In this document: positions 28,780-61,506 of the stretch, piece by piece
Numbering within the stretch: the stretch's first letter is position 1
Layout of the letters: the number at the start of each line of letters is the position of its first letter
Assembly: GCA_019752015.1 (NCBI GenBank)
Contig: JAIEMQ010000031.1
Location: 30,580-94,579 of the forward strand
DNA from: Cyanobacteriota bacterium
GTDB lineage: Bacteria; Acidobacteriota; Vicinamibacteria; Vicinamibacterales; UBA2999
DNA length: 64,000 bases
Direction: 5' to 3'
Made by a program: the position numbers and the translations under genes
The notes under the pieces: model-generated
The model's input: only the letters and a program-made list of their open reading frames with translations
Database searches by the model: none
Told to the model about the DNA's origin: nothing

Positions 28780-31700
28780 CGTAGGCAGGCCGCCGCGGAA
28801 GGCGATCTGCGTTGAGGCGATCGTAGGAATCTTCTCTCCAGGCGTTATCAGGCCGACGAGGTTAAGCGGATCGGCGGCGCTAATCGTGATTGGATCGCCG
28901 ATCGGCTTCGTTCGACGAATCTGTCGTGCCAATTCGACCGCTTCCGGCAGCGCGAACTGTTCGCCGGACAAACCTGTAACGAATCGTCCACCGCGCACTT
29001 CGCCACGCGCTTCAAGACGCCGGTAGACCCGCAGCAGCTCGCGCCATGGCACTCGATACGGTTCTCTCGCGATCATCCGGCGGCACATGATGCCGTATCG
29101 GCGCAGCAGCACGTGCGCGTAGGCCTCGACCGCGGCTTCGCGATCTTCCGGCGCCGATTCTTCGCTGAGAAGCGACCAGCGTCCACCGGGCGACGCGGTT
29201 GCCGCCGTTGAACGGCCGCGGAACAAGCGCGAGGGCGCCGGCGATGCATCGCCCCAGATCGCGCGAAGACCGGCGAATCCATCCGAGGCGACCAGACCCG
29301 CCCACACCAATTCGGCAAGCGCATCACGGACCGCGAACGTGTCCGTATCGAGCGCGGTGGCGATCTCGTGAACGAATCGCGCGCCTTTGTCCTCGAGCAC
29401 CTGCAAGACGGCCTTGCCGGTGTCGCTCACAACCGGCGCGTGTGCCGTTTGTGGTTTCGCGAGCGCGCGCCACAACGCTGCATGATCGCGGCGGAATAGG
29501 GCAATCGGCGTCGCTCGAATCGGCCGCGGCGGCAGCAGCGCGTCCGGATTGGCGGCCGGCGGAGTCGAGACGCGCGCCCACGCCGCTTCGCCGCTGTAGC
29601 ACAGCAGATCGAGCATCGACGGGTCGTAGTCCTTGACGCGCGCGGGCAGGATGCGGCGATCCCACGCATCGGCCGCGAGCTCGTAACCATCGAGCTGATC
29701 GATCACGGCGCGAACGCCGTCGAGGCCGGTGAGCTGCGTGGACGGATCGACGTGCTGCCACGCGAGCAGGAATCGCATGAAGTCGGATTGCGACACCGGC
29801 TGGATTTCGGCGCGCAGACGCTGCAGCGTGGCGCGATGGATGCACGCCAGCAGGCGGCGATCGCACCACTCTTCTTCGACACCGCCGGGCGAGAACCATC
29901 CGCGCAGCGCCGCGCCGTCGGCCTCGAGGCCGAGCAGCACTTGGATCGCCGCATCGTGGCTGAGGCCGATCGGCGAACCCAGGTGCTTCGGCGCGATCGG
30001 GCCCGCAAGCGCCATGCGGCCGCGCATCAACTCCACGAGAGCCGATTCACGCGACCACTCGATCTTCGCGCGGCTCGCCGGTGCGGCAATCGGTGGAGCG
30101 AACGTCACGCTGTCGATCGCCGCCTGCACTTCAGGCAAGCGCTCCGCGGCGATCCAGACGTTTTCGTTCCAGCCTGCGCGTGTCGCGATTGCGGCGCGGC
30201 CGGATTGCGACAGCTCCGCAAGCCAGTCGTTCCAGCCCGGTTCGCGCGCGGCTTCGGCGATCGTCAGGAAGCCCGCGCTGACGAGGGCATCGTGCAGCTC
30301 GTCGGCGTCACGAGGATCGGGCCACGCTTCGGCGCGCACCTTGGCGATCGCGGACGCATCCAGCACGCCGAGCGCGATGGTGTCCTTGTCGTCGCTGGCC
30401 CGCCGCGTCTGCACGGCATGCGCACGCCGCTCCTCGAGCGGCGCATCATCGAGGAACGCGTACGGACGGGCGTTGATGATCTCGTGCGACAACGGCGACG
30501 GCTCCGTCGTATCGCGCGCGATCGTCCTGATGCTGCCGTCGTGGATGCGCGTCAGGATCTCGACGAGCGCGGGCAGGTCCATCGCCTCTTCGAGACAGTC
30601 CTTGACCGTCTGTGCGACGAGCGGATGATCCGGAATCTCGCGATCACCGGGAATGTTTTCCAGGCAAGCGGCGGCATCCGGGAACGCTGCTGCAAGGAGA
30701 TCATCCGCGCGCATCCGCTGAATCGGCGCCGGCACCTTGCTGCCGCCATTCATGCGGGTCACCGCGAGCGACACGGTCGCATTCCATCGCCATCGCGTCT
30801 TGAAGACCGGCGCGTCGAGGAAGGCCTGGATCAGGATCTCCTTCACGCTCGACGGGTGCAGATAGCGGAACACATCGGCCAGCGGGAACGAGTGCTGCTC
30901 GCCAAGCGACAGCAGCAGTCCTTCTTCCGTCGCCGACGCCTGCAGCTCGAAATTGAACTGCCGGCAGAAGCGTTTACGCAGCGCCAGCGCCCAGGCGCGA
31001 GTGACGCGGCTGCCGAATGGCGCGTGCAGCACCAGCTGCATGCCGCCGGAGTCGTCAAAGAACCGCTCGAGGATGATGGTGTCGCGCCTCGGCAGCGCGC
31101 CAAGGATGCGGGCGGACTCGGCAAGATAGTCGACGACCGCTTCGACGGCAGCGCGTGGCGCAGCGGTCTCGGCGATCAGCCACGCGATGGCGCCCTCGCG
31201 ATCGCCGGCGAGCAAGTACGGTTCGAGTCCGGCGCGCAGATCGCTGACCAGTCCCGATAATTCGGCGGTGCGGCCGGGCGCCTCGCCGAGCCAGAACGGA
31301 ATCGTCGGCGGCGCGCCGTGCGCATCGGCGACGCGAACCGTGCCGCCAACAACCTGCAGAATCTTCCACGACGTGTTGCCGAGCTGAAAAATATCGCCGG
31401 CGTTGCTCTCGATCGCAAAGTCCTCGTTGAGCGTGCCGACGAAGGTCTCGTCGGGATCGAGAACCACGCGGTAGTCGGCCACGTCCGGAATCGCGCCGCC
31501 CGACGTCAGCGCGGTGAGCCGTGCGGCGCGCTTGGCGAGCACGCGGCCCTGCACCTCGTCGCGATGAATCAGTCCGCCTCGCCGGCCCTTCCGGGTGGTG
31601 AAGCCTTCGGCCAGCATGCGAATCACCGCATCGAATTCTTCACGGGCGAGATTGCGATAAGGCCAGGCCTTCCGCACCGTCTCGAAGAGATCGTCCTCCC

Positions 31701-44147: not shown

Positions 44148-45428
44148 TCACCAAGCGACCATCGCGGTTTCGAAGAGTTTGGCGAGATCGTCTTCGTTCG
44201 CGGGGCGCGGGGATAGTTTCGTGACGCGATGCTGCGGCAACGTCCCTTCAACCAGCGCCGGGATGTCTGCCGAGGAATAGCCGACCGCCTTCAGGCCGTC
44301 CGGCACGTTCAGCTCGCGCATGAACCAGGTGATGCGATCGGCGAGCACGCGGCCGGCATCTTCACTCTTCACTCCGCTGACATTCGCGCCGAGCGCCTCG
44401 GCGGCCTGCAGATGCCGATCCGGATTCGCCGACGCCGTGAATCGAAACACGGCGGGCGCGTTCAGGATGACGGAGACGCCGTGCGGCACCAGCGGGTGAT
44501 CCGCTGAGTAGCCGGGCGCGTGATAGGTCTTCACCTTGCCGGACACCGGATACGACATCCCGTGCGGCAGGTGGACGCCGGCATTGCCGGAACCCACTCC
44601 CGCATACGACGCCGCCAGCAGCATCTGCGCGCGCGCCTCGTCGTCTGAGGGATCCGCGACCGCGCGAACGAGATACTTCGCCACCATTCGCAACGCCTGC
44701 ATCGACCACACGTCGCTGATCGGATTCGAGCCCTGATACGCCGGCCGCATTTTCGGACTGTCAGGCATCGGCCGATCGGTGAACGGCATTGCCGTGAACG
44801 ATTCGATCGCGTGGCTGAGGATGTCGAGACCGCTCGACGCCGCGACTTCGGGCGGCATCGTGCGCGTGTTGTCGGGATCGAGCATGCCGAGCGTCGGCTT
44901 CAAGCGGCGATTGGCGATGCCGGTCTTCGCATGCATCCGGCTCAAGTCGAAAATGCTGACGCCGGTCGTCTCGCTGCCGGTCCCCGCCGTCGTTGGAATC
45001 GCGATCAGCGGCTTCAGCGGACCAGGCACAGGCAATCCCTTGCCGATCGGCGGGTTGACGTAATCGAGAAAATCCGCCGGCGGATAGGTGACGTACAAGT
45101 TGATCGCCTTCGCCGTGTCGATCACCGACCCGCCGCCGACGGCCACGAACGCGTCGTAGCCGCCCTCCTTCGCGAAGTTGATGCCATCGAGGAACGATTC
45201 GTCCGTCGGCTCAACGCGAACGCGGTCGTAGATCGTGTAGCGAATCCTGGCGGCTTCGAGCGACTCGACGACGGTTTGCATCGGCGGCAGTATGCGAAGC
45301 GTGCGATCGGTCACGACCAGCACGTGCTTTGCGCCCAGCTCGGCGAGATCCATCCCGACCTCGCGCGTCACGCCGATGCCAAAACGGACCGACGCCACCG
45401 CCATCTCGAATGCAATGTCCCGGTTCAT
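44148..45428 (-). CDS. iron-containing alcohol dehydrogenase, hydroxyacid-oxoacid transhydrogenase type
   Basis: A 426-residue group III Fe-ADH. The NAD-binding motif GGGSVIDTAKAI and the nucleotide segment IPTTAGTGSETTGVSI are intact. Metal ligands are in GLDILSHAIESFTA, HLPHGMSYPVSG and PLVPHGVSV. The insertion around KVKTYHAPGYSADHP is typical of the hydroxyacid-oxoacid transhydrogenase (ADHFE1-like) branch, which interconverts 4-hydroxybutyrate and 2-oxoglutarate. Substrate is inferred. It lies immediately downstream of the giant tamB-tamA gene in the opposite end-to-end order (same strand, 17-bp gap). Confidence 0.9.
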   Translation of the reverse strand: MNRDIAFEMAVASVRFGIGVTREVGMDLAELGAKHVLVVTDRTLRILPPMQTVVESLEAARIRYTIYDRVRVEPTDESFLDGINFAKEGGYDAFVAVGGGSVIDTAKAINLYVTYPPADFLDYVNPPIGKGLPVPGPLKPLIAIPTTAGTGSETTGVSIFDLSRMHAKTGIANRRLKPTLGMLDPDNTRTMPPEVAASSGLDILSHAIESFTAMPFTDRPMPDSPKMRPAYQGSNPISDVWSMQALRMVAKYLVRAVADPSDDEARAQMLLAASYAGVGSGNAGVHLPHGMSYPVSGKVKTYHAPGYSADHPLVPHGVSVILNAPAVFRFTASANPDRHLQAAEALGANVSGVKSEDAGRVLADRITWFMRELNVPDGLKAVGYSSADIPALVEGTLPQHRVTKLSPRPANEDDLAKLFETAMVAW

Positions 45429-45445
45429 CGCCGCGCATTATCCGT

Positions 45446-48400
45446 CTAAAACGCCTGTCCGATGGAGAAGTAGAAGCGGCCGCGGCGCTCACCATCGCGC
45501 CGATCGAGCACCAGCCCATAGTCGCCGCGGACCAGGACCCATTTCGTCCGCAGGCGCAGCCCGACGCCGGCGGTCTTGCGGAGATCGGTGAACGAAAAAT
45601 CGTCGGTCGCCTGGAAGACGTTGCCGATGTCCATGAAGGTCACGCCGTCGACGATGCTGATCAGCGGGAACCGGAGCTCGTTGTTGAACAGCAGCATGGC
45701 ATCGCCGCCGATCGGCACGCCGCTGACGCCGATCGGCCCGACCGCGTTCTGTTCGAAGCCGCGCAGCGTCATGCTGCCGCCGGCAAAGAACCGCTCGCTG
45801 GTCGGCACGAACGTGCCCATGCCTTTCGACAGGCCGATGCGCGCCGCGGTGGCAAACACGAATCGCGGCCGCAGAATCTCGTTCGAAAAACGCTTGCGGC
45901 GCTCACGCTGCAACGGGAAGTAGTGGAAGTACTGGCCGAAGTACTTCATGTAGGTATCGTCCGAGCCCAGCCACTGCGGCGAGAACTGGAAGGCATGCGA
46001 GCTGAACGAGCCGCGCGTGGCGTCGAGCACTTCGTCGCGGGTGTCGCGCACGAGCGCGCTCGACAGCGGCGAGACCTTGATGAACTGGTCCGGGTCCCCG
46101 TCCGGCAGCGGATCGAACGTGCGGGCGCGTTCGAAACGGTAGCCGTAGGTCCAGACGTAGGAATCCTTCAGCTTCTTCGCCTGCTGGAACGACGCACCTT
46201 TCCGATCGACATTGAACGCATCGGTGATCTGCGTCGCCGGGTTGCGCTCTTCGCGGTAGTAGATCGACGCCGTCGTCTGGATCGGCCAGTGCAGCAGCGT
46301 CGGCTGCGAGAGATACGCCCTTGCCTCGCGGAGCTGCGAGTCGTAACGCGACGCCACGCCGATAACCCGCGCCTTGCCAAAGACGTTGTGCAGCGACGCA
46401 TCGAAGACGCCGCCGAGTTTTCCTTCGGTGTCGTAGGAGGCGCCGTAACGAACCTGATACGGCTGCACTTCGCGCACCGCGACTTCAATGACGACCGGTT
46501 TCTGCGTCGGCTCGAGCGTGACGCCGGTGATGGCGCCGATCGTTTCCGGCGAGGTTTCAACGATCGATTCCCGCGACAGGTCGACGATCGAGAAGGCGCC
46601 GCTGTCATACAGGTTCTTGCGCGATCGGCTGAGCGCCTGCAGGTTGAGCGGCTCCGCGGGCTTGACGATCACCTGCTCGCGCACCAGCCGCTCGCTGGTC
46701 TTGTCGTGGCCGGCGATGCGGACGTCGGCGACGATCGCCTGCCGTCCTTCGCTGATGTCGAACTCGACGCTGGTGCGCCCGCCGATGCGATCGATGACCA
46801 GCTGATAGTTGGCGCGCACGTCGTTGTAGCCGCGCGCCCAGTAGAGATCGCGGATGTGCTGCAGGGCGTTTTCGGCCGCGGTCGGCAGGAACGGATCGCC
46901 GGGCCGCACCGGCGAGTCCGCCAGCAGCACCGGCGTGACGATCGCGCTGTTTCCCTTGGCCGTCACCTCGTTGACCGTGAACTGCGGACCTTCGTGGATC
47001 GGGACGATGACGCGCGCGATGTCGCCTTCGAATTCGTATCGCGGCTTGTCGATCTCGACGTTGAGATAGCCTTGCTCGCGGTAGAGACGCCGCAACAGCT
47101 CGGTCACGACCGTGGGATCGGTGAACAGTTGCGGCTCCAGCTTCTGTTCGTCGATCACCTGGTCGAGCTCGTCGCCGGAAATACCCGAGGCGCCTTCGAA
47201 GACCAGCACCACCTGGCGCGATCGCGGTCCGGGTGTGATGTCGAAGTGAACGACGCGGTGTTCCGCATCGGTGTCGTCGACCCGCGCGGTCACGTTCGCC
47301 TGCAGGTAGTCGTCGCGCATGAGCCATTCCTGCAGCGTCTCGGCGGTGTCGTCGGTGCGTTGCGCATCGAACACGCCGCGATGCCACTGCTGGCGGACTT
47401 CTTCCTGCACTTTGCGCGGCGGCGTCATGCCGGCGTAGGCGAACTCGATGCGCGGGCCCTTGATGATGCGCACGCCGATCTTCACCTGCCCGTCCTGCTG
47501 CACGCGATCGACACGCACGCGTGACTGCGCCCAACCCTCGTCGCGCAGCCGCTCTTCGATGTCCTCGACGCCGTTGCGAACGGCGAAGTAGTCGAACTCC
47601 TTGCCTTCCTCGACGCCGATCATCTTGCGCAGCTCGGCGGCGGGGATCGGCGCGTCCTCGGCGACGGTGATCGCCGCGACTTCGGGCCGGACGCGCGGCA
47701 TCCGCCGCGGCTCCGGACGTCCGCCCTTGCGAATGTCATGACGGAAATCGACGCGGTAGCTGTTGTCGGCCTGCCGTACGGCGCGGGTCTGGAAGCGGCG
47801 CGTGACGTCGTAGGTCGCCAGCCAGATCTGATCGTCGCTATCGGCGAGATCGACCGAGTAGGTCAGGGTCAGATCGTCGGTGATCTCCTGGCCCAGCGTC
47901 AGCCGCGCGCCCGGATCCGCTTCGTTCGCGATCAGCTGCGGCTCGAGCCGCACTTCGCTCAGGCCCGTGGCGCGCTCGAGCCCCCGTCCGATCGTCGAAC
48001 CGACCCGGCCCGTCAGGTACGACAGCACCTGTTCGCGCGCGACGTCGTATTCCTGTCCGCGCATCTGATCGAGCCTCCGTCCCGTGACGATCATCGCCAT
48101 GATGTCCGGCTCGGGCAGCGGCGGGCTCGACGTCAAGGACGATTCGGTATCGCCGGGCTCTCCGGTCACGGTCAGCGTGATGTCGTAATTGTTGGCGCTC
48201 GTGGTCATCGCGAGGTTGAACGAGGGAAAGATCCGGCGATCCTCGATGAACGTCATCTGGCCGCGTTCGATCTGGTAGGTGCGCTCGTTGAGCGTCACCA
48301 TGCCGCCTTCGGCGACGTCGAGGCGCCCGAGCAGTCCGGTCTCGTACGGCGTGCCGACGACCCGCAGGTCCGTCGTCACCTCGGCCTTCGCGAGATTGTT

Positions 48401-51400
48401 GTCGACGAGAATCGGCGACGCGGTATCGACGTTGAGATTGAACAGCACGCGCTCGAGGAGCGGATTGCGCTCCGGCGTCAGCTCGAGCTGGCGCCGCGCG
48501 GTCACGGTCGCGAGCAGGCCGGTATCGAAGTTGATGTCGCCGGTCAGGCCCGCTTCCTGGATGGTCACCTGGCCGCCGACGACAATGTCGTCGCCCTGCG
48601 ATGTGATCTTGATATCCGAATCCGACAAGCTGCGCAGATCGAGCGGCGCGTCGAAGGCGAAGTCGCGGGCGGCGATTTCAACGTTGACGTCGCGCACGTC
48701 GCCGCCGCGGATGGCGAGGCCGCCCGTGCCGGTGACCGTGCCGCCGTTGACATCGGCGGTCAATGACGCGATCTCGACGCGGTTCTGATTCAGATCGATG
48801 CGCGCGTTGATGGCCTCGGCGGCGAGGCGCGGCTCGTCGATCAGCATCGTGCCGTCGCGCAGCGTCACATTGCCGGTCAGGATCGGATCGGCGATCGTGC
48901 CGCGAGCGGCGATGTCGATGGTCGTATCGCCTTCGGCACGAACGGCGTCGGTGAGGATCGACAAGACGGCGATGTTGAGGCCGCCGTCCACGTTCACGTC
49001 GATCGGACGCTCCCCGGCAAGTCCGACGGTGCCGGTTGCCGCCAGCGTTCCCGCCGATCCACCGAGCGTGAACGGCTCGATTGACGCAACGCCGTTTCGC
49101 ACGCCGATCGCCGACGGCCCCTTCTGTTCGAGGGCCAGGCCGTTGAAGCCGAGCTGCAAATCGCGGAACACGACGCGGCCTTCCGCCTCTCGAATGTCCG
49201 GCTTCGTCGAGCGTAGATCCGCATCAACGGAAATACGTCCGCTCAATCCTTCGGGGGCGCCGGGAATCGCGCTCGGGTCGAGACCGTCGACGCGCGCGTG
49301 AACCGTGGCCGGTCCGCCTTTGCGCGGAATCTCGACCGGCAGCTTTGGAAGCAGATCCAGAGGCACGCGCGCCGACGCAGTGATCTGCGCAGCACCCCAC
49401 TTCGCGTTGAGCTGATCGACCACCGCCTCGCCATTAGCCACCGTTGCCGTTGCCGACAGCTTGCTGATGCCGGGCTCGAGCGCCGGTGACAGCACCAGCG
49501 CGTTTTCGACGACGAGTTTCAGATTCGGATCGATCGCCCTGAGCGTGCCCTCGAGCGTCCCCGTCAGCGTCAGCCGTCCGTCGGCGGCGATGTTGCTCCC
49601 CGCGGGCGCATATTGCGCAAGCGTCGCGAGATTGGCGCGCGCGTCAATCGTGATCGCGCCCGGCGCGTTGCGATCGAGCAGCGGCAGGTTTCCGGTAACG
49701 GCGATCGTCGAATCCTCGGCCGTCAACTGCAGCCGATCGATCGTGAGCCGTTCATCCTCGTAGTGCAGTTGTGCCGGCCCATCGAGCGCGAACGGCTTCT
49801 CATTCCATGATCCTGCGAACGTGTCGACAGTGGCCGTGGCGCGGCCGCTTTGCGGATCGGCGAGTGGTCCCGATGCCTCGAGCTCGGCCCGCATCCGTCC
49901 CTGCAGCGGCGTCTGCAGCTTCAGCGGCAGCGCCGCGAGATCGAGATCGTTTACCGTTGCGCTGATCGCCGCCTGATACGGCCGGTTGACGGCGATCGTC
50001 GACGTCGAGGTCAACCCGAACTTCTCCACCGCCGCATTCGTCGTCGCGCGCGCGTCGGCCAGCGTGGTGTCGGCCACGACCGCGCCAACCGCATACTCGC
50101 CGACGACGAGATCGTCCGCGCGGACGTTGATCGTGCCCGTGAGATTCTGGACCGTGCCGTTGGCGTGCGCGATTGCTTCGACGGTGCCGCGCACCGGCCT
50201 GCCATCCGGCAGCGTCAACGTCAGCAACTTGACGTTTTGCGATTGCAGATCAGCAGTGAATTGCCGCGTCGTCAGTTGATACGAGCCGGTGGCGGTGATG
50301 CGGCCGTTGCCGCCGGCCTGCGGCTTGTCGAGCACGAGCGACGTGATGTCGAGTTGCCGTCCGGAGAGCCGCGCCGCTGCGTTCAGTGACCCGAGGGTCT
50401 CGTTGTAAGCCGCGAGGTCGGCGCCCTGGACCTGCATCGTGGCGACGGGCGCATCCGCGGTTCCGCCGATGCGCGCTTGCGCTGATAGCGTGCCGCTCGC
50501 GGGAATGCTCGATTGCTCGACCGCTCGCAGGAGCCCCGCGACCTGCAGCGCGTCGGCGCGCACCGTCAGGTCGAGCGCGCGTTGACCGCGGAGGCCAATC
50601 GTTCCCGATGCGGTCGCTCGCGCTTCCTGCCACACCACGTCAACACGATTCACGGTGAGTGCCGCGGTGCGATAGGCAAGATCGCCATTCACCGCGATGC
50701 CCTGCGCATCTCCGATCGCGAGCGATGGCGCCTGCAGCGTGGCGGTGAGCGTCGGCGCGGTGATGGTCCCACTGACGCGACCATCCGCGGTCAGCGATCC
50801 GCCGACCGACATCGGCAGCATCGACCCCTGGCGGCGCCCGAGGAACGCCCCGACGGCATTCACTGTTGCCTGCACGTTCGCCGCCTGCGCCTGCAGCGTC
50901 CCGTCGATGCGCTCGCGATCGTTGATCCTGACGCGGCCGTTCAGGCTGGCACCGGCCGCGCGCACATCGCGCAGCGTCGCGATCAACTGATTGCCGTCGC
51001 CGCCGGCCTCGATGCGCCCGCCAACCGGCAGCGTGGATTGCGTGACGCTCGCGCGGGTCGGCGTCAACGAAAGATTGGCGCGGCCCTTCGCCGACGCATA
51101 CTCGAGACCGGGCCATTCAACGGCGACCTTGCCGTCAACGCGCGTCGCGACACGATACGGCAACGCCAGCGTTCGCATCATCGGTTCCGCATTCAATCCG
51201 CTCACGGTGGCGTTCACTCGTGATTGGCGCCCGGTCGTGAATCCGATCTCCCCTTCGCCGTTGATCGCGCCGATCGGCCCGGTGACATTCAAGCGGGAAA
51301 CACGGGCATGATCCGCCCCGGTCTCGTAGGCGCCGGCAGCGTCGAGCCCGATGCCGTGCAGATCGCGGACCTGGAGATCGTGGCCGGTGATGTGCGCATC

Positions 51401-52294
51401 GATCGTCAGAGCGCTGATCGCGCCCTTCACCGTGCCTTCAACAGCCATTTGCCCGGACACCGGCTCGGCGATCTTCGCCACGTCGGCAGCCTGGGCAACG
51501 TCGAGTGTCGCCTGCACGTTGAGATCGGCCGCCGGCTGATCGAATGGACCGAAGCGGCCGCTGGCATTCAACTGCGCACCGGCGGCCGCGACCTCAGCAC
51601 GTTCGATGTTCACGTCGTCGCGGCCGAGATCGAGGGTGGCGGCGATGCGGTCGAGATGCGCCAAGCGATCGCGCATTCTCGCCTCACCGCCAGCCGCGTC
51701 GATCGTGATGTCGTGACGATCGGCAATCGCGTCGCCTTTCATCGTCAGCAACGCGCGCGGGATCGTCACATCGATCTGTTGCGCGCGATTTTCGTAGCGG
51801 ACCGAGGCGTCCGGCACCTGCAAATCAGCGATCAGGTAGTTGATCGGCCGATCGGATTGATCCGGATTCTTCGGCGGCCGCGGCAGGTTGTCGACGCCGT
51901 TCTCGTCAACGAAGTAATGCAGGCGCACGCCTTCGGCGGTGCCCGACTGCACGACGTATCTGCCGCGCAGCACCTGCCACGAGCTCAGGTCGACACGCGC
52001 GCGATCGATTTCCAGGAATGGCGGGGCATTCGGTGTGCGCGACGAAACGACGCGTACGTTGCGCAGCTCGGTTGAGAGATCGAGGAGGTTATAGCGGAAC
52101 CCCTCACTCGAGAAGGTGATGTCCCGCGCGGCAAGCAGCGTCGTGACCTTGCCGAGGATGTAGCGTCGCGCTGGCGGCGTCTGCAGACCCGCAACGGCGA
52201 TGATGAGCAGAAGAACGAGGGCGGCAACTCCGTAGCCCAGCCGCCGCCATATTCTCCGGCCCTTCACCGGTGATTTTGTCGAGGGCTCCGCCAT
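45446..52294 (-). CDS. TamB-TamA/BamA fusion: single-chain inter-membrane translocation and assembly protein
   Basis: A single uninterrupted frame of 2282 codons. Residues 20-43 form an inner-membrane helix (LGYGVAALVLLLIIAVAGL). Residues about 45-1525 are a TamB-like AsmA/DUF490 array of short repeating strands, closing with the diagnostic TamB C-terminus (AEGGMVTLNERTYQIERGQ, PPLPEPDIMAMIVTGR, LTYSVDLADSDDQIW). Residues about 1540-1930 are POTRA-like repeats. From about 1940 an Omp85 barrel follows (YQVRYGASYDTEGKLGG), including the lid-loop motif LRGFEQN and the terminal Phe. Normally TamB and TamA are two proteins. Here they are joined in an order that fits membrane topology: inner membrane, periplasm, outer membrane. 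Confidence 0.93.
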   Translation of the reverse strand: MAEPSTKSPVKGRRIWRRLGYGVAALVLLLIIAVAGLQTPPARRYILGKVTTLLAARDITFSSEGFRYNLLDLSTELRNVRVVSSRTPNAPPFLEIDRARVDLSSWQVLRGRYVVQSGTAEGVRLHYFVDENGVDNLPRPPKNPDQSDRPINYLIADLQVPDASVRYENRAQQIDVTIPRALLTMKGDAIADRHDITIDAAGGEARMRDRLAHLDRIAATLDLGRDDVNIERAEVAAAGAQLNASGRFGPFDQPAADLNVQATLDVAQAADVAKIAEPVSGQMAVEGTVKGAISALTIDAHITGHDLQVRDLHGIGLDAAGAYETGADHARVSRLNVTGPIGAINGEGEIGFTTGRQSRVNATVSGLNAEPMMRTLALPYRVATRVDGKVAVEWPGLEYASAKGRANLSLTPTRASVTQSTLPVGGRIEAGGDGNQLIATLRDVRAAGASLNGRVRINDRERIDGTLQAQAANVQATVNAVGAFLGRRQGSMLPMSVGGSLTADGRVSGTITAPTLTATLQAPSLAIGDAQGIAVNGDLAYRTAALTVNRVDVVWQEARATASGTIGLRGQRALDLTVRADALQVAGLLRAVEQSSIPASGTLSAQARIGGTADAPVATMQVQGADLAAYNETLGSLNAAARLSGRQLDITSLVLDKPQAGGNGRITATGSYQLTTRQFTADLQSQNVKLLTLTLPDGRPVRGTVEAIAHANGTVQNLTGTINVRADDLVVGEYAVGAVVADTTLADARATTNAAVEKFGLTSTSTIAVNRPYQAAISATVNDLDLAALPLKLQTPLQGRMRAELEASGPLADPQSGRATATVDTFAGSWNEKPFALDGPAQLHYEDERLTIDRLQLTAEDSTIAVTGNLPLLDRNAPGAITIDARANLATLAQYAPAGSNIAADGRLTLTGTLEGTLRAIDPNLKLVVENALVLSPALEPGISKLSATATVANGEAVVDQLNAKWGAAQITASARVPLDLLPKLPVEIPRKGGPATVHARVDGLDPSAIPGAPEGLSGRISVDADLRSTKPDIREAEGRVVFRDLQLGFNGLALEQKGPSAIGVRNGVASIEPFTLGGSAGTLAATGTVGLAGERPIDVNVDGGLNIAVLSILTDAVRAEGDTTIDIAARGTIADPILTGNVTLRDGTMLIDEPRLAAEAINARIDLNQNRVEIASLTADVNGGTVTGTGGLAIRGGDVRDVNVEIAARDFAFDAPLDLRSLSDSDIKITSQGDDIVVGGQVTIQEAGLTGDINFDTGLLATVTARRQLELTPERNPLLERVLFNLNVDTASPILVDNNLAKAEVTTDLRVVGTPYETGLLGRLDVAEGGMVTLNERTYQIERGQMTFIEDRRIFPSFNLAMTTSANNYDITLTVTGEPGDTESSLTSSPPLPEPDIMAMIVTGRRLDQMRGQEYDVAREQVLSYLTGRVGSTIGRGLERATGLSEVRLEPQLIANEADPGARLTLGQEITDDLTLTYSVDLADSDDQIWLATYDVTRRFQTRAVRQADNSYRVDFRHDIRKGGRPEPRRMPRVRPEVAAITVAEDAPIPAAELRKMIGVEEGKEFDYFAVRNGVEDIEERLRDEGWAQSRVRVDRVQQDGQVKIGVRIIKGPRIEFAYAGMTPPRKVQEEVRQQWHRGVFDAQRTDDTAETLQEWLMRDDYLQANVTARVDDTDAEHRVVHFDITPGPRSRQVVLVFEGASGISGDELDQVIDEQKLEPQLFTDPTVVTELLRRLYREQGYLNVEIDKPRYEFEGDIARVIVPIHEGPQFTVNEVTAKGNSAIVTPVLLADSPVRPGDPFLPTAAENALQHIRDLYWARGYNDVRANYQLVIDRIGGRTSVEFDISEGRQAIVADVRIAGHDKTSERLVREQVIVKPAEPLNLQALSRSRKNLYDSGAFSIVDLSRESIVETSPETIGAITGVTLEPTQKPVVIEVAVREVQPYQVRYGASYDTEGKLGGVFDASLHNVFGKARVIGVASRYDSQLREARAYLSQPTLLHWPIQTTASIYYREERNPATQITDAFNVDRKGASFQQAKKLKDSYVWTYGYRFERARTFDPLPDGDPDQFIKVSPLSSALVRDTRDEVLDATRGSFSSHAFQFSPQWLGSDDTYMKYFGQYFHYFPLQRERRKRFSNEILRPRFVFATAARIGLSKGMGTFVPTSERFFAGGSMTLRGFEQNAVGPIGVSGVPIGGDAMLLFNNELRFPLISIVDGVTFMDIGNVFQATDDFSFTDLRKTAGVGLRLRTKWVLVRGDYGLVLDRRDGERRGRFYFSIGQAF

Positions 52295-52333
52295 GCGGGG
52301 CTCCTAAATGCAGGATCCGCACCAGCGGACGGA

Positions 52334-52869
52334 TCAGGCGCGAACGGCCTTGCGCACCAACTCCGTCGTCGCACCGTAGACGACGTGCGAAAGAATGCTG
52401 TACGCGTGCAGTCCGAATGAGGCCTCCGCGCAGATCGCGACAGTCCGAGTGCCGGCACGATGCCTTCATCCGCAAGCGCCCAGACGGCGAGGCCGAACGG
52501 CACTCCGCCGCCGCGGCGCAAACGCGGATTGATCTCGACGGCTGCGCCGTAGAGCGCGCCGTTGAGGGCTCCAAATGCCAAATGTACGAACTCGCCGGCC
52601 AGCTGTTTCGACCGCGGCTCAGTCAGTTCCCTGCCCACCGTTGCCAGCGTCGCATTGGCCACGCGCACGGTGGCATCGTCCGAGGCATTGCCGATCGCCT
52701 GCGCCGGCTGCGGTCCGCGTCCGGTTCGGGGCAGGCCGATCGTCGCGTCATCGGCCTCTCGTCCGCCGCGAACAACTGCCGCGAGCCGCTGGAATTGATT
52801 CATGGCGAGGGACCCCGCCGCGCCGGCCGCGGCGCCGGCCAAAATGCCCGTCCATATCGATCGCTTCAT
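52334..52869 (-). pseudogene. DUF1440/YagU-like membrane protein, one-base frameshift
   Basis: The front half is intact (GILAGAAAGAAGSLAMNQFQRL, LAGEFVHLAFGALNGALYGA, GGGVPFGLAVWALADEGIVPALGL). After LSRSAR the frame changes. The expected end (EASFGLHAYSILSHVVYGAT, then ELVRKAVRA and stop) reads one base over, and the total length is one short of a multiple of three. The lost base lies near 52427 in a GCGCGG run. Joined, it would be 178 residues, normal for the family. This may be a sequencing or assembly error. It is divergent from the GyrI-like gene. Confidence 0.7.
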
Positions 52870-52876
52870 GATCGAT

Positions 52877-52920
52877 TTGAATAGCAACTATCGCGCCGCG
52901 CTAGAATCCGCTTTTGGAGG
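52877..52920 (+). promoter_or_regulatory. putative promoter and ribosome site of the GyrI-like gene
   Basis: TTGAAT, 19 bases, TAGAAT (52902-52907), then GGAGG (52916-52920) four bases before ATG. The -35 overlaps the start codon region of the divergent gene. Spacing is slightly long for sigma-70. Confidence 0.4.
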
Positions 52921-58709: not shown

Positions 58710-59191
58710 TATTGAGCCGCGTTGCATGCCAGCGAGATCATCTTCAACGTCGTCGCTTGAAAATCCGGCGTGTCGTCGGCGGGCTGGCCGGTGGTCCCCG
58801 GCGGCACGATCTGCCCGATCAGCTCGACGTGATGATTCAGGTGCTTCTTCAATTCGACTTCGGCAACGCCGAGGATCTGGTATTTCGTCGAGACACCAAT
58901 GCCTGACACCGTGCTCGACGGCGACATCTTGACGTTGGTCAGGATGTAGTCCTCGGGCATGCCGCCGCGCGCGCGCGGATCGATGGCGGCGCCCTTGACG
59001 GCGTCGCGCTGCGTCAGGCAGCCGCTGATTGTCATGGACGGGTTCGCGGGTGTGGCCCGCGCCGTCGACTGCGTAATGGTCGGCCGCGGAGGATCCGGCG
59101 GCTGGGGCATGGTGGTGGTCTGAGGGGCCTGCGCCTGCAGCGTCACGGATGCGATAGTGGCGAGCGCGGCGGTCATCAAACGTGTGGTCAT
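58709..59191 (-). CDS. secreted [12 protein letters not shown] protein, paralogue of the one at 55.9 kb
   Basis: A 160-residue exported protein (signal MTAALATIASVTLQAQA). A Pro/Thr-rich linker precedes the shared core: [47 protein letters not shown] and ATTLKMISLACN. The low-complexity C-terminal insertion of its paralogue is absent. Both copies are on the minus strand and flank the two-gene ADH operon. Function unknown. Confidence 0.7.
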   Translation of the reverse strand: MTTRLMTAALATIASVTLQAQAPQTTTMPQPPDPPRPTITQSTARATPANPSMTISGCLTQRDAVKGAAIDPRARGGMPEDYILTNVKMSPSSTVSGIGVSTKYQILGVAEVELKKHLNHHVELIGQIVPPGTTGQPADDTPDFQATTLKMISLACNAAQ

Positions 59192-59256
59192 GGTCGTCAC
59201 TCCAGGGCCGCTCGCGTGCAAAGCGTTTGCCGTCGCGATACTCTCGCACTCAACGC

Positions 59257-61506
59257 GTGATAGCACTGCTGAGGCCTCTGGTCGTCCTCGTGTTGATCAG
59301 CTGCGCCGCCACGGCCGCCTCGGCGCAGTCGCGCGATCGCGTCGGCATCGCGCTCGGCGGCGGCAGCGCGCGCGGCATCGCCCACGTCGGCGTGCTGCGC
59401 TGGCTCGAAGAACATCACGTGCCAATCGATGCCGTCGCCGGCACCAGCATGGGCGGCCTGATCGGCGGCGCTTACGCGGCCGGCATGTCGCCGGATGAAA
59501 TCGAGACACTGCTGCTCGCGGTCGACTGGGATGCGATGTTCGGCGCCTCCGGCTTTCGATTCGATCACGTCCGGCGCAAGCGCGATCTCCGCGACTACAC
59601 TTCACGTCTCGAATTCGGTCTGAAGCACGGCATCGCCGGCCCGCCGGCGCTCAACACCGGGCAACAGGTTGGTCTGCTGCTGTCGCGCATTGCGGCGGCG
59701 TATTACGGCGTGAAGAGTTTTGACGATCTGCCGACGCCGTTTCGATGCGTCGCCGTCGATATCCGCACCGCGACAGCGGTGGTGATCGCCGACGGCCCGC
59801 TCGCGCGCGCCATGCGGGCGACGATGGCGATGCCGTTGACGTTCCCGCCGGTCGTGATCGGCGATCAGATCCTGGTGGATGGCGGCGCGCTCGACAACCT
59901 GCCGACCGGCGTCGCGCGATCGATGGGCGCGACGAAGGTGATCGCGATCAACGTGGCCGATCTCGGCAGGAAGAACGCCATCGACGGGACGCTGCTCGGC
60001 CTCGTCGCGGAAACGATGGACGCGATGATTCGCGCCAACGGCGCCGCCAATCTTGCCGCCGCCGACGTGGCGATCACGGTGCCGCTCGACGGCTACTCGC
60101 CCAACGACTTCGCTCGCACACGCGACTTGATCCGCGCCGGATACGACGCCGCCGAAGCGGCGAAAGATCGCCTCCTTCCGCTCGCGGTCGACGAGGCGCA
60201 ATGGCATTCATGGCAAACCGCGCGGCGCGATCGCACGCTGACGCGACTGCCGGTGCCGGCGTTCGTGCGCGTCGATGGCGCCGGCCCGACCGACACGGCG
60301 CGCATGCAGCGGCGGCTCGCACTCCTGCGCAATGCGGAGATCGATTTCGCGGCAATCGAGCTCGGGCTGAACGAGCTCGGCGGACTCGATCGTTTTGAAA
60401 CCGTCACGTGGGCGCTCGCCGACGACAACGGGCAACCAGGTCTGGTGTTCAGCGCCCTGGAAAAAAGCCACGGCCCGCCGTTCCTGTTCCTGGGCGCGAC
60501 GCTCGAGAACACGACCAGCAACGAATACCGGTTCGGCGTCGGCGCGCGGCTGCTGGCCTTCGACGTGCTCGGATCGGGCACCGAGCTGCGCGTCGATGGC
60601 GCGCTCGGATCCGAACCCGGCATCGCGGCGTCGTGGTATCGACCGGTTGGCAGCACGCCGTTTTTCATCGAGCCGCTCGTCGGTGCCCGCACGCGGCGGC
60701 TCAGCATCATCGAAGACTCGACGATCATTGCCGACTACGGACGGAGACGGCTCGTCGCCGGCCTCGATCTCGGATTCAATCCCGGCCGGTTGAGCGAGAT
60801 CCGCATTGGCGCGCGAATGGGACGAAGCGACGCGCGCGTGCGCATCGGCGACTCACGGTTACCGGAGATCAGCGGCCCGGAGTCGTCGCTGGTCGCCACC
60901 TGGACCTACGACGGCCAGGACGATCCGTTGCTGCCCTCGCGCGGCGCGCACATCGTGACCACCGCGACGCACATCCTGCGCGCGCCGGATGTTTCAGGCG
61001 CGAACCTGCGCAGCGGCGAGAATGTCACGATGGCCGAAGCGTCGGCGACCTGGTTCCGATCGATCGCGCGCGATCGCACGCGGCGCATCTTTGCCGTCGG
61101 CGGTGTCGGCCGCACGCTCGCCGGCACGCCGATCGTCCTCGATCAATTTGCGCTCGGCGGGCCCGCGCGCATGACCGCGTTCGGCATCGGCGAAGCGCGC
61201 GGCGATCACTATGCGTACGCCGGCGCGGGCTACCTGCACCGCATGTTCCGCCTGCCCGATTTCCTCGGCCGTTCGATCTTCGTTGGCGGCTGGACCGAAG
61301 CGGGCAGCGCCTGGCAGAAGGGGCGGGACGCGAATATCACCGTCCATGGCAGCGCCGGCGTCATTGCCGACACGCTCCTCGGGCCGATCTTCGCGGGGAT
61401 GAGCGCCGGAATCGACGGGGAATCTCGCTTTTATATCGGAATCGGCCGAATCTTTGGCCCTTCGACGTGGCCGAGGGCCGCCCCGAGCGCAGTCGAGGGG
61501 CGGTAA
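59257..61506 (+). CDS. patatin-like phospholipase, type Vd autotransporter (PlpD-like)
   Basis: A 749-residue protein with GTG start and signal peptide LLRPLVVLVLISCAATAASA. The patatin domain has the oxyanion loop GGGSARG, the nucleophile GTSMGG and the Asp of the dyad in VDGGALDNLP. One POTRA-like domain follows at about 345-420, then an Omp85-type barrel ending ESRFYIGIGRIF. The arrangement matches type Vd lipase autotransporters, which carry the lipase to the cell surface. After the expected terminal Phe, 16 more residues come from a GC-rich repeat, which is unusual because the terminal Phe is part of the barrel-insertion signal. Confidence 0.9.
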   Translation: MIALLRPLVVLVLISCAATAASAQSRDRVGIALGGGSARGIAHVGVLRWLEEHHVPIDAVAGTSMGGLIGGAYAAGMSPDEIETLLLAVDWDAMFGASGFRFDHVRRKRDLRDYTSRLEFGLKHGIAGPPALNTGQQVGLLLSRIAAAYYGVKSFDDLPTPFRCVAVDIRTATAVVIADGPLARAMRATMAMPLTFPPVVIGDQILVDGGALDNLPTGVARSMGATKVIAINVADLGRKNAIDGTLLGLVAETMDAMIRANGAANLAAADVAITVPLDGYSPNDFARTRDLIRAGYDAAEAAKDRLLPLAVDEAQWHSWQTARRDRTLTRLPVPAFVRVDGAGPTDTARMQRRLALLRNAEIDFAAIELGLNELGGLDRFETVTWALADDNGQPGLVFSALEKSHGPPFLFLGATLENTTSNEYRFGVGARLLAFDVLGSGTELRVDGALGSEPGIAASWYRPVGSTPFFIEPLVGARTRRLSIIEDSTIIADYGRRRLVAGLDLGFNPGRLSEIRIGARMGRSDARVRIGDSRLPEISGPESSLVATWTYDGQDDPLLPSRGAHIVTTATHILRAPDVSGANLRSGENVTMAEASATWFRSIARDRTRRIFAVGGVGRTLAGTPIVLDQFALGGPARMTAFGIGEARGDHYAYAGAGYLHRMFRLPDFLGRSIFVGGWTEAGSAWQKGRDANITVHGSAGVIADTLLGPIFAGMSAGIDGESRFYIGIGRIFGPSTWPRAAPSAVEGR
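61459..61503. repeat. GC-rich REP-like sequence at the patatin 3' end
   Basis: CTTCGACGTGGCCGAGGGCC, then a hairpin CCGCCCC / GGGGCGG (61478-61484, 61497-61503). Such CTTCGACnnGGCCGAGGGCC units are widespread in high-GC soil-bacterial genomes. Here it is read through as the last 16 codons of the patatin gene. Confidence 0.65.

Follow-up and report, generated by a model that had tools for sequence, protein, structure and literature searches.

A 64,000-nucleotide stretch of DNA from a member of the Acidobacteriota (positions 30,580 to 94,579 of contig JAIEMQ010000031.1, assembly GCA_019752015.1; hereafter, the window) carries in a single gene both halves of an envelope machine whose E. coli counterpart consists of two proteins, TamB and TamA. 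The gene lies on the minus strand (45446..52294) and, as the original prediction from the letters alone had stated, its frame is uninterrupted: a frame scan finds an ATG at 52294, a stop at 45448-45446 and 2282 codons before that stop with zero internal stops. The encoded 2282-residue protein is best read as a genuine fusion of TamB with a BamA-like Omp85 protein, likely an envelope-spanning bridge that would let phospholipids slide across from inner to outer membrane; we put the probability of this reading at about 0.6.

Domain organization of the fusion protein

The order of parts runs from one membrane to the other. At the N-terminus is a predicted membrane anchor (residues 12-37; 52184..52261, minus strand), seen as a helix in the AlphaFold2 (AF2) model and as a hydropathy peak of 2.58 over 19 residues; values of at least 1.6 occur in 100 of 107 long proteins, that of the window included. 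By its resemblance to TamB, this helix is probably not cleaved. It is followed by a TamB β-taco bridge (residues 59-1412; 48059..52120, minus strand), whose strands alternate polar and non-polar residues above the level of shuffled sequences. The Pfam TamB (DUF490) domain spans residues 1178-1517 (47744..48763, minus strand; E 3.6e-42, 145.4 bits against a cut-off of 22.4). The TamB part ends in a helix and last β-strands (residues 1414-1523; 47726..48055, minus strand), which correspond to the part of E. coli TamB that enters the barrel in TamAB (PMC12800296). This end is conserved across fusions: among 132 aligned sequences, strand positions are kept at Phe1517 (115/132), His1519 (129/132), Val/Ile/Leu1521 (128/132) and Gly1524 (131/132).

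TamB proteins proper have the TamB domain at their very end, the last residue being aromatic in most (PMC4494059), whereas here a linker, POTRA domains and a barrel follow. The linker (residues 1524-1537; 47684..47725, minus strand) is rich in Arg, Pro and Gly and is delimited by the alignment of fusions and by a low predicted local distance difference test (pLDDT) score. It measures 11-19 residues (median 14) in the same 132 fusions, most of which belong to the window's group, and is longer in some other fused groups. Five POTRA domains occupy 46469..47683 (minus strand), matched by Pfam in five stretches (E 9.6e-34, above cut-off); their limits, about 1538-1611, 1615-1687, 1694-1767, 1773-1848 and 1852-1942, are taken from the DSSP line of the AF2 model. 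The number had been given beforehand as four or more. The chain closes with a 16-strand Omp85 barrel (residues 1946-2282; 45449..46459, minus strand), recognized by Pfam above its cut-off (Omp85 at 1970-2282; E 4.4e-39, 135.3 bits against 24), by AF2 and by fold matches. It contains the motif LRGF at residues 2177-2180 and ends in Phe, the last residue in 106 of 106 relatives longer than 2200 residues. One distant fused frame of 2311 residues (L143, genome G011) ends in Leu.

Two AF2 models cover the protein. That of residues 1-1200 (mean pLDDT 86.8) shows the helix at 12-37 and then near-continuous β-strands. That of residues 1083-2282 (mean pLDDT 81.4) shows five β-α-α-β-β POTRA units and 16 barrel strands, counted on its DSSP line, and thus bears out the Omp85 barrel expected of the C-terminal part. 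In the latter model the helix at 1414-1428 is of low confidence, five strands lie at 1464-1523, and pLDDT falls below 50 at 1529-1534 in the linker. The top fold matches of the C-terminal model are BamA chains of the β-barrel assembly machinery (BAM) complex. TamAB structures 9xdc and 9xdd are absent among the 50 fold matches listed for this model, which is uninformative either way; five of the 50 listed matches start at model residue 420 and align to the start of a barrel, a hint of TamB strands at the barrel seam that, consisting of range ends only, is unused as evidence. The claim that the order of parts fits the topology exactly survives from membrane to membrane and fails locally, as the last TamB strand lies about 14 residues from POTRA1.

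The join in independent genomes

A frame of this kind could in principle be produced by a sequencing or assembly error joining two adjacent genes. Unfused tamB-Omp85 operons with overlaps of 1-4 nucleotides do occur, and one indel could therefore join them. However, a search with residues 1150-1800, which span the junction, against 5.8 billion proteins (E <= 1e-10; the 7990 candidates sharing most words were scored) returns 416 matching proteins. The 120 listed have 56-80% identity over 99-100% of the query, and 115 of them bear TamB, POTRA and Omp85 labels together, five being without the Omp85 label; most are 2200-2390 residues long and about twenty are shorter. Moreover, a search from a distant fusion (L080) returns 76 proteins, 74 of them with TamB and Omp85 together, including the hypothetical protein ABI59_03075 of Acidobacteria bacterium Mor1 on a contig of 5,989,545 bases. 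From another fusion (L098), 382 proteins are found, eight of the 120 listed being named Thermoanaerobaculia. One genome consisting of a single 5,985,000-base contig carries a fused frame of 2086 residues (L140). With 416 relatives matching the junction region, fused frames in independent genomes of many families and the single-contig genome, an assembly join is ruled out for practical purposes. The stop and start between the halves that the original prediction had named as grounds for rejection is not seen in the 120 listed relatives. Automatic annotation already recognizes both parts, since public records give the relatives TamB-type or BamA-type names such as "outer membrane protein assembly factor BamA/autotransporter translocation and assembly factor Ta...".

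Family assignment of the barrel

The barrel had been left as either TamA-like or BamA-like. For the protein, NCBIfam gives OM_YaeT as the best match, with 254 bits where 297 are required; ATportTamA (66.3 bits against 625) and ATportTamB (44.3 against 825) likewise stay below their cut-offs. In BamA, the signal peptide directly precedes POTRA1; in the window protein TamB stands in that place. The protein has the five POTRA domains and 16-strand barrel that characterize BamA in E. coli (PMC13382580) rather than the three POTRA domains of TamA (PMC4104836). Judged by POTRA number and NCBIfam scores, the barrel is BamA-like rather than TamA-like. The OM_YaeT cut-off is not a general divider of fused from unfused proteins, because the Mor1 fusion (P0174) passes it with 341 bits.

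Other copies in the same genome

The window genome (82 contigs, 5.9 Mb, completeness 100) holds four relevant loci, the window gene included. As the original prediction had suggested seeking, separate bamA and tamB genes are present. A canonical BamA of 885 residues (P0005, contig 4) shares the POTRA array and Omp85 barrel with the window protein but is without the TamB part; it has, by eye, its own signal-like N-terminus, and it alone of the four loci passes the BamA cut-off. On contig 6, a separate TamB of 1368 residues with a terminal Phe has a stop codon sharing one base with the start codon of a separate Omp85 gene, whose product has a signal-like N-terminus. The fourth locus is a second fusion of 2203 residues (P0002, contig 43; L015, 3476-10087, plus strand), 29% identical to the window protein over the C-terminal part. 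OM_YaeT scores are 467 bits for the separate BamA, 282 for the separate Omp85, 254 for the window protein and 201 for P0002. The genome gives zero matches to AsmA and none to YhdP over its cut-off. Six further, weaker Omp85 matches are present, and near the end of contig 43 lies a POTRA and Omp85 frame of 394 residues with a partial barrel match (L018, 6165-7349, minus strand).

Distribution of fused frames

Fused frames are widespread in Acidobacteriota, beside unfused versions. The fusion in one chain stands, and its standing as a single oddity does not. TamB is present in 267 of 297 genomes of the phylum. In 20 stretches around TamB frames of at least 2000 residues, drawn from 19 genomes of other families, TamB, POTRA and Omp85 share one frame in every case (20/20); three listed frames of that length were left out of the set (G228:C32, G246:C9 and G025:C63, the last fused by profile search). 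With the window protein as query, at least 77 of 193 genomes of the class have one match that runs across residues 1480-1600 within an open frame, and 12 of the 77 have two; two candidates were scored per genome, which makes 77 a lower bound. A profile of the fused C-terminal part finds fusions in at least 29 of 99 genomes of the phylum that are at least 95% complete, 26 with one match over the junction and three with two matches in one stop-free frame. Within the genus of the window genome, a window-type match occurs in one of nine genomes, and the matches of the other eight are at 28-31% identity, like P0002 (two candidates scored per genome); given this patchy presence, the window type has perhaps been transferred or often lost.

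A scan of genome contigs yields 18 named loci, of which 17 are titled Acidobacteria or sub-groups, among them Luteitalea sp., Bryobacter sp., Candidatus Solibacter sp. and Bryobacterales, and one is titled Nitrospiraceae (L133). The 14 loci that reach across the junction are all fused; L131, L132 and L134 are barrel-end contig fragments, and L133 is split. The only other phylum searched by genome is that of the Nitrospiraceae record, where no fusion is seen among 118 genomes (63 with TamB); its longest TamB frame is of 1474 residues, and therefore none looks fused.

Individual fusions vary in structure. One of the 77 class genomes (L055, G402) has a match that crosses the junction and then changes frame near residues 1644-1704, in the POTRA region; the break may be genuine or stem from a sequencing error. 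L098 and its relatives, Thermoanaerobaculia by name, are fusions of about 2400 residues with a longer stretch between TamB and barrel and perhaps extra POTRA domains. A separate fused group (L082, L090 and L097) has an insertion inside the POTRA region.

Evolutionary origin

Both gene orders occur among the unfused loci of the phylum. Of 16 stretches, ten have tamB before Omp85 (L099-L107 and L111) and four the reverse (L108, L109, L112 and L113); L110 is without Omp85, and so is L114, a guessed stretch that was left out of the analysis. The E. coli order is tamA-tamB, in which loss of the stop would put the inner-membrane anchor behind the barrel. Fifteen split loci with tamB ahead of Omp85 were chosen. 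Twelve of these are out of frame, and in 11 of them a possible Omp85 start codon shares 1 or 4 bases with the tamB stop; L100 is ambiguous. The other three have Omp85 in the tamB frame: in L138 and L139 it opens directly behind the tamB stop, making these natural near-fusions, and in L137 about 150 bases after it. The split TamB proteins end in Phe in 11 of the 15. Compared with split pairs, the fusions have lost the tamB stop and the Omp85 signal peptide and have retained the last TamB strand. The source of the fusion is likely a tamB-Omp85 operon with overlapping stop and start.

Trees were built from the last 560 residues of 74 Omp85 proteins (55 fused against 19 other rows) and from 73 TamB domains; they are of the quick kind without bootstrap, with Shimodaira-Hasegawa-like approximate likelihood ratio test (SH-aLRT) supports. 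Each tree needs three changes between the fused and split labels; counting only strongly supported branches, three are still required on the Omp85 tree and two on the TamB tree. The L082, L090 and L097 group adjoins split L111 (SH-aLRT 96 and 91), and L098 adjoins split L107 (97 and 95). On the Omp85 tree the 51 fused rows that remain cluster together at a modest support of 83; the TamB tree divides them into groups of 10 and 41, with no supported branch uniting the two. A single clade of all fusions was tried and is rejected by the approximately unbiased (AU) test on the Omp85 half (p 1.56e-5; 55 against 19 rows), with the caution that long branches are present (E. coli TamA and BamA, L112). 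The trees suggest that the fusion probably arose more than once, although three label changes could also be one gain and two losses; reversal of a fusion to a split pair is possible.

Relation to known systems

Like the E. coli translocation and assembly module (TAM; PDB 9xdc/9xdd, PMC12800296), the window protein has an inner-membrane anchor, a taco groove, a C-terminal helix with last strands, and a POTRA/Omp85 barrel for the outer membrane. Unlike TAM, which is encoded by two genes and whose TamA has three POTRA domains (PMC4104836), it is one chain, with TamB before Omp85 and five POTRA domains. In E. coli TamAB, POTRA1 touches TamB residues 892-994, POTRA3 touches 1153-1167, and one of two states has the last TamB strand paired with the barrel (PMC12800296); in the window protein, by contrast, the TamB end is tied to POTRA1 by a short linker.

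An operon of a second BamA with tamB has been described in Acidobacteria, together with a few very long TamB sequences (Heinz et al. 2015, PMC4494059). That Omp85, nearer BamA than TamA and placed beside tamB, resembles the fused barrel, and the unfused contig 6 pair of the window genome is of the same kind. However, the described pair consists of separate genes, some with seven POTRA domains, in an order given as BamA-TamB, and the available text describes no fusion. The Borrelia BamA-TamB hybrid likewise uses a BamA-type barrel with TamB; in its model, POTRA1 and POTRA5 are close together and the last TamB strands complete the barrel (PMC13382580). Unlike the fusion, it is made of two proteins, and BamA itself serves TamB, whereas the window genome has a separate canonical BamA.

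Omp85 proteins also occur fused to a WD40 part, reminiscent of BamB-BamA, or to patatin, as in PlpD (Heinz and Lithgow 2014, PMC4104836); these join a partner or effector domain to Omp85 in one chain, and no TamB fusion appears in the available text. Rare fusions of pore proteins are also on record, none with TamB in the part of PMC4827864 available. The WD40 and patatin fusions give a precedent for joining a partner to Omp85. Bridge-like lipid transfer proteins such as LPD-3 and Vps13 have a similar long amphipathic β groove but are eukaryotic and without an Omp85 barrel. The joined part in WD40-Omp85 and patatin-Omp85 proteins is not TamB and is not known to reach the inner membrane. Fold and strand alternation of the window protein agree with the bridge-like class, as a member of which it would carry lipid between two membranes. 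No report of a TamB-Omp85 fusion was found in literature on TamB, TamA, BamA, Omp85, DUF490 or strain Mor1, a search whose scope excluded subscription papers and preprints.

Proposed mechanism and alternatives

In the proposed mechanism, the uncleaved N-terminal helix would hold the chain in the inner membrane, the amphipathic strands of the TamB taco would form a groove, and lipid tails may run in it, as proposed for E. coli TamB. The five-POTRA barrel would sit in the outer membrane, presumably inserted there by the separate BamA. With some 14 residues between the last TamB strand and POTRA1, either the POTRA arm loops back or the E. coli arrangement is altered. An arm curling back under the barrel would let the last TamB strand pair with the first strand of its own barrel, and the TamA/TamB-type hybrid barrel would then become intramolecular. 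Fusion would also fix a 1:1 ratio and remove the partner search, which may help a genome running several TamB/Omp85 pairs. The full scheme, a one-chain lipid conduit with an intramolecular hybrid barrel and a looped-back POTRA arm, with at least three origins in Acidobacteriota and operating alongside unfused copies in one cell, is proposed tentatively, and we would lean against its being right in every part.

Two other functions deserve weighing. The chain may chiefly use the taco to bring outer-membrane proteins to its own barrel, with lipid transport secondary. A BamA-like barrel, five POTRA domains and the BAM-complex fold matches would suit such an assembly machine, and TAM is known to assemble a subset of outer-membrane proteins (PMC11014939; PMC11341756); yet the genome already has a canonical BamA, and the gate would be occupied if TamB strands fill the barrel seam. 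We regard this as rather unlikely. Less likely still is a pre-protein, cut in the linker after synthesis to give ordinary separate TamB and Omp85 at 1:1. The linker is Arg/Pro-rich in the window's group and of low confidence in AF2, and therefore probably exposed, and a split operon of like kind exists in the genome. Against cleavage, no motif common to the fused groups is visible by eye, the linker being Ala/Pro/Gly/Thr-rich or much longer in other groups, and the Omp85 signal peptide has been lost without an obvious new processing site.

The fusion bears on the arrangement of TamB with its Omp85 partner and on whether the cargo is lipid, protein or both. The fusion together with the operon order suggests that the two act together across the envelope, and finding them joined in nature is evidence for a single working unit of TamB and Omp85 barrel, a BamA-like barrel being no exception. 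Because it fixes the distance from the barrel-inserting end of TamB to POTRA1, it discriminates between models. As a single polypeptide of fixed stoichiometry, it could be purified for structural and lipid-transfer work. It also poses the problem of how a 2282-residue protein with its anchor in the inner membrane is threaded through the wall and inserted into the other membrane.

Neighboring frames

On the strand opposite the fusion gene, an open frame of 731 residues (45329-47524, plus strand) is probably a by-product of high G+C. Upstream, a frame at 52264-52887 (minus strand) has a sub-threshold DUF1440 match, and its end overlaps the fusion start by about 31 bases. Further along the window, a patatin-like phospholipase of 774 residues (59182-61506, plus strand) is matched in Pfam by patatin only; its C-terminal half, which ends in FYIGIGRIF, looks like an Omp85-type barrel, as in PlpD.
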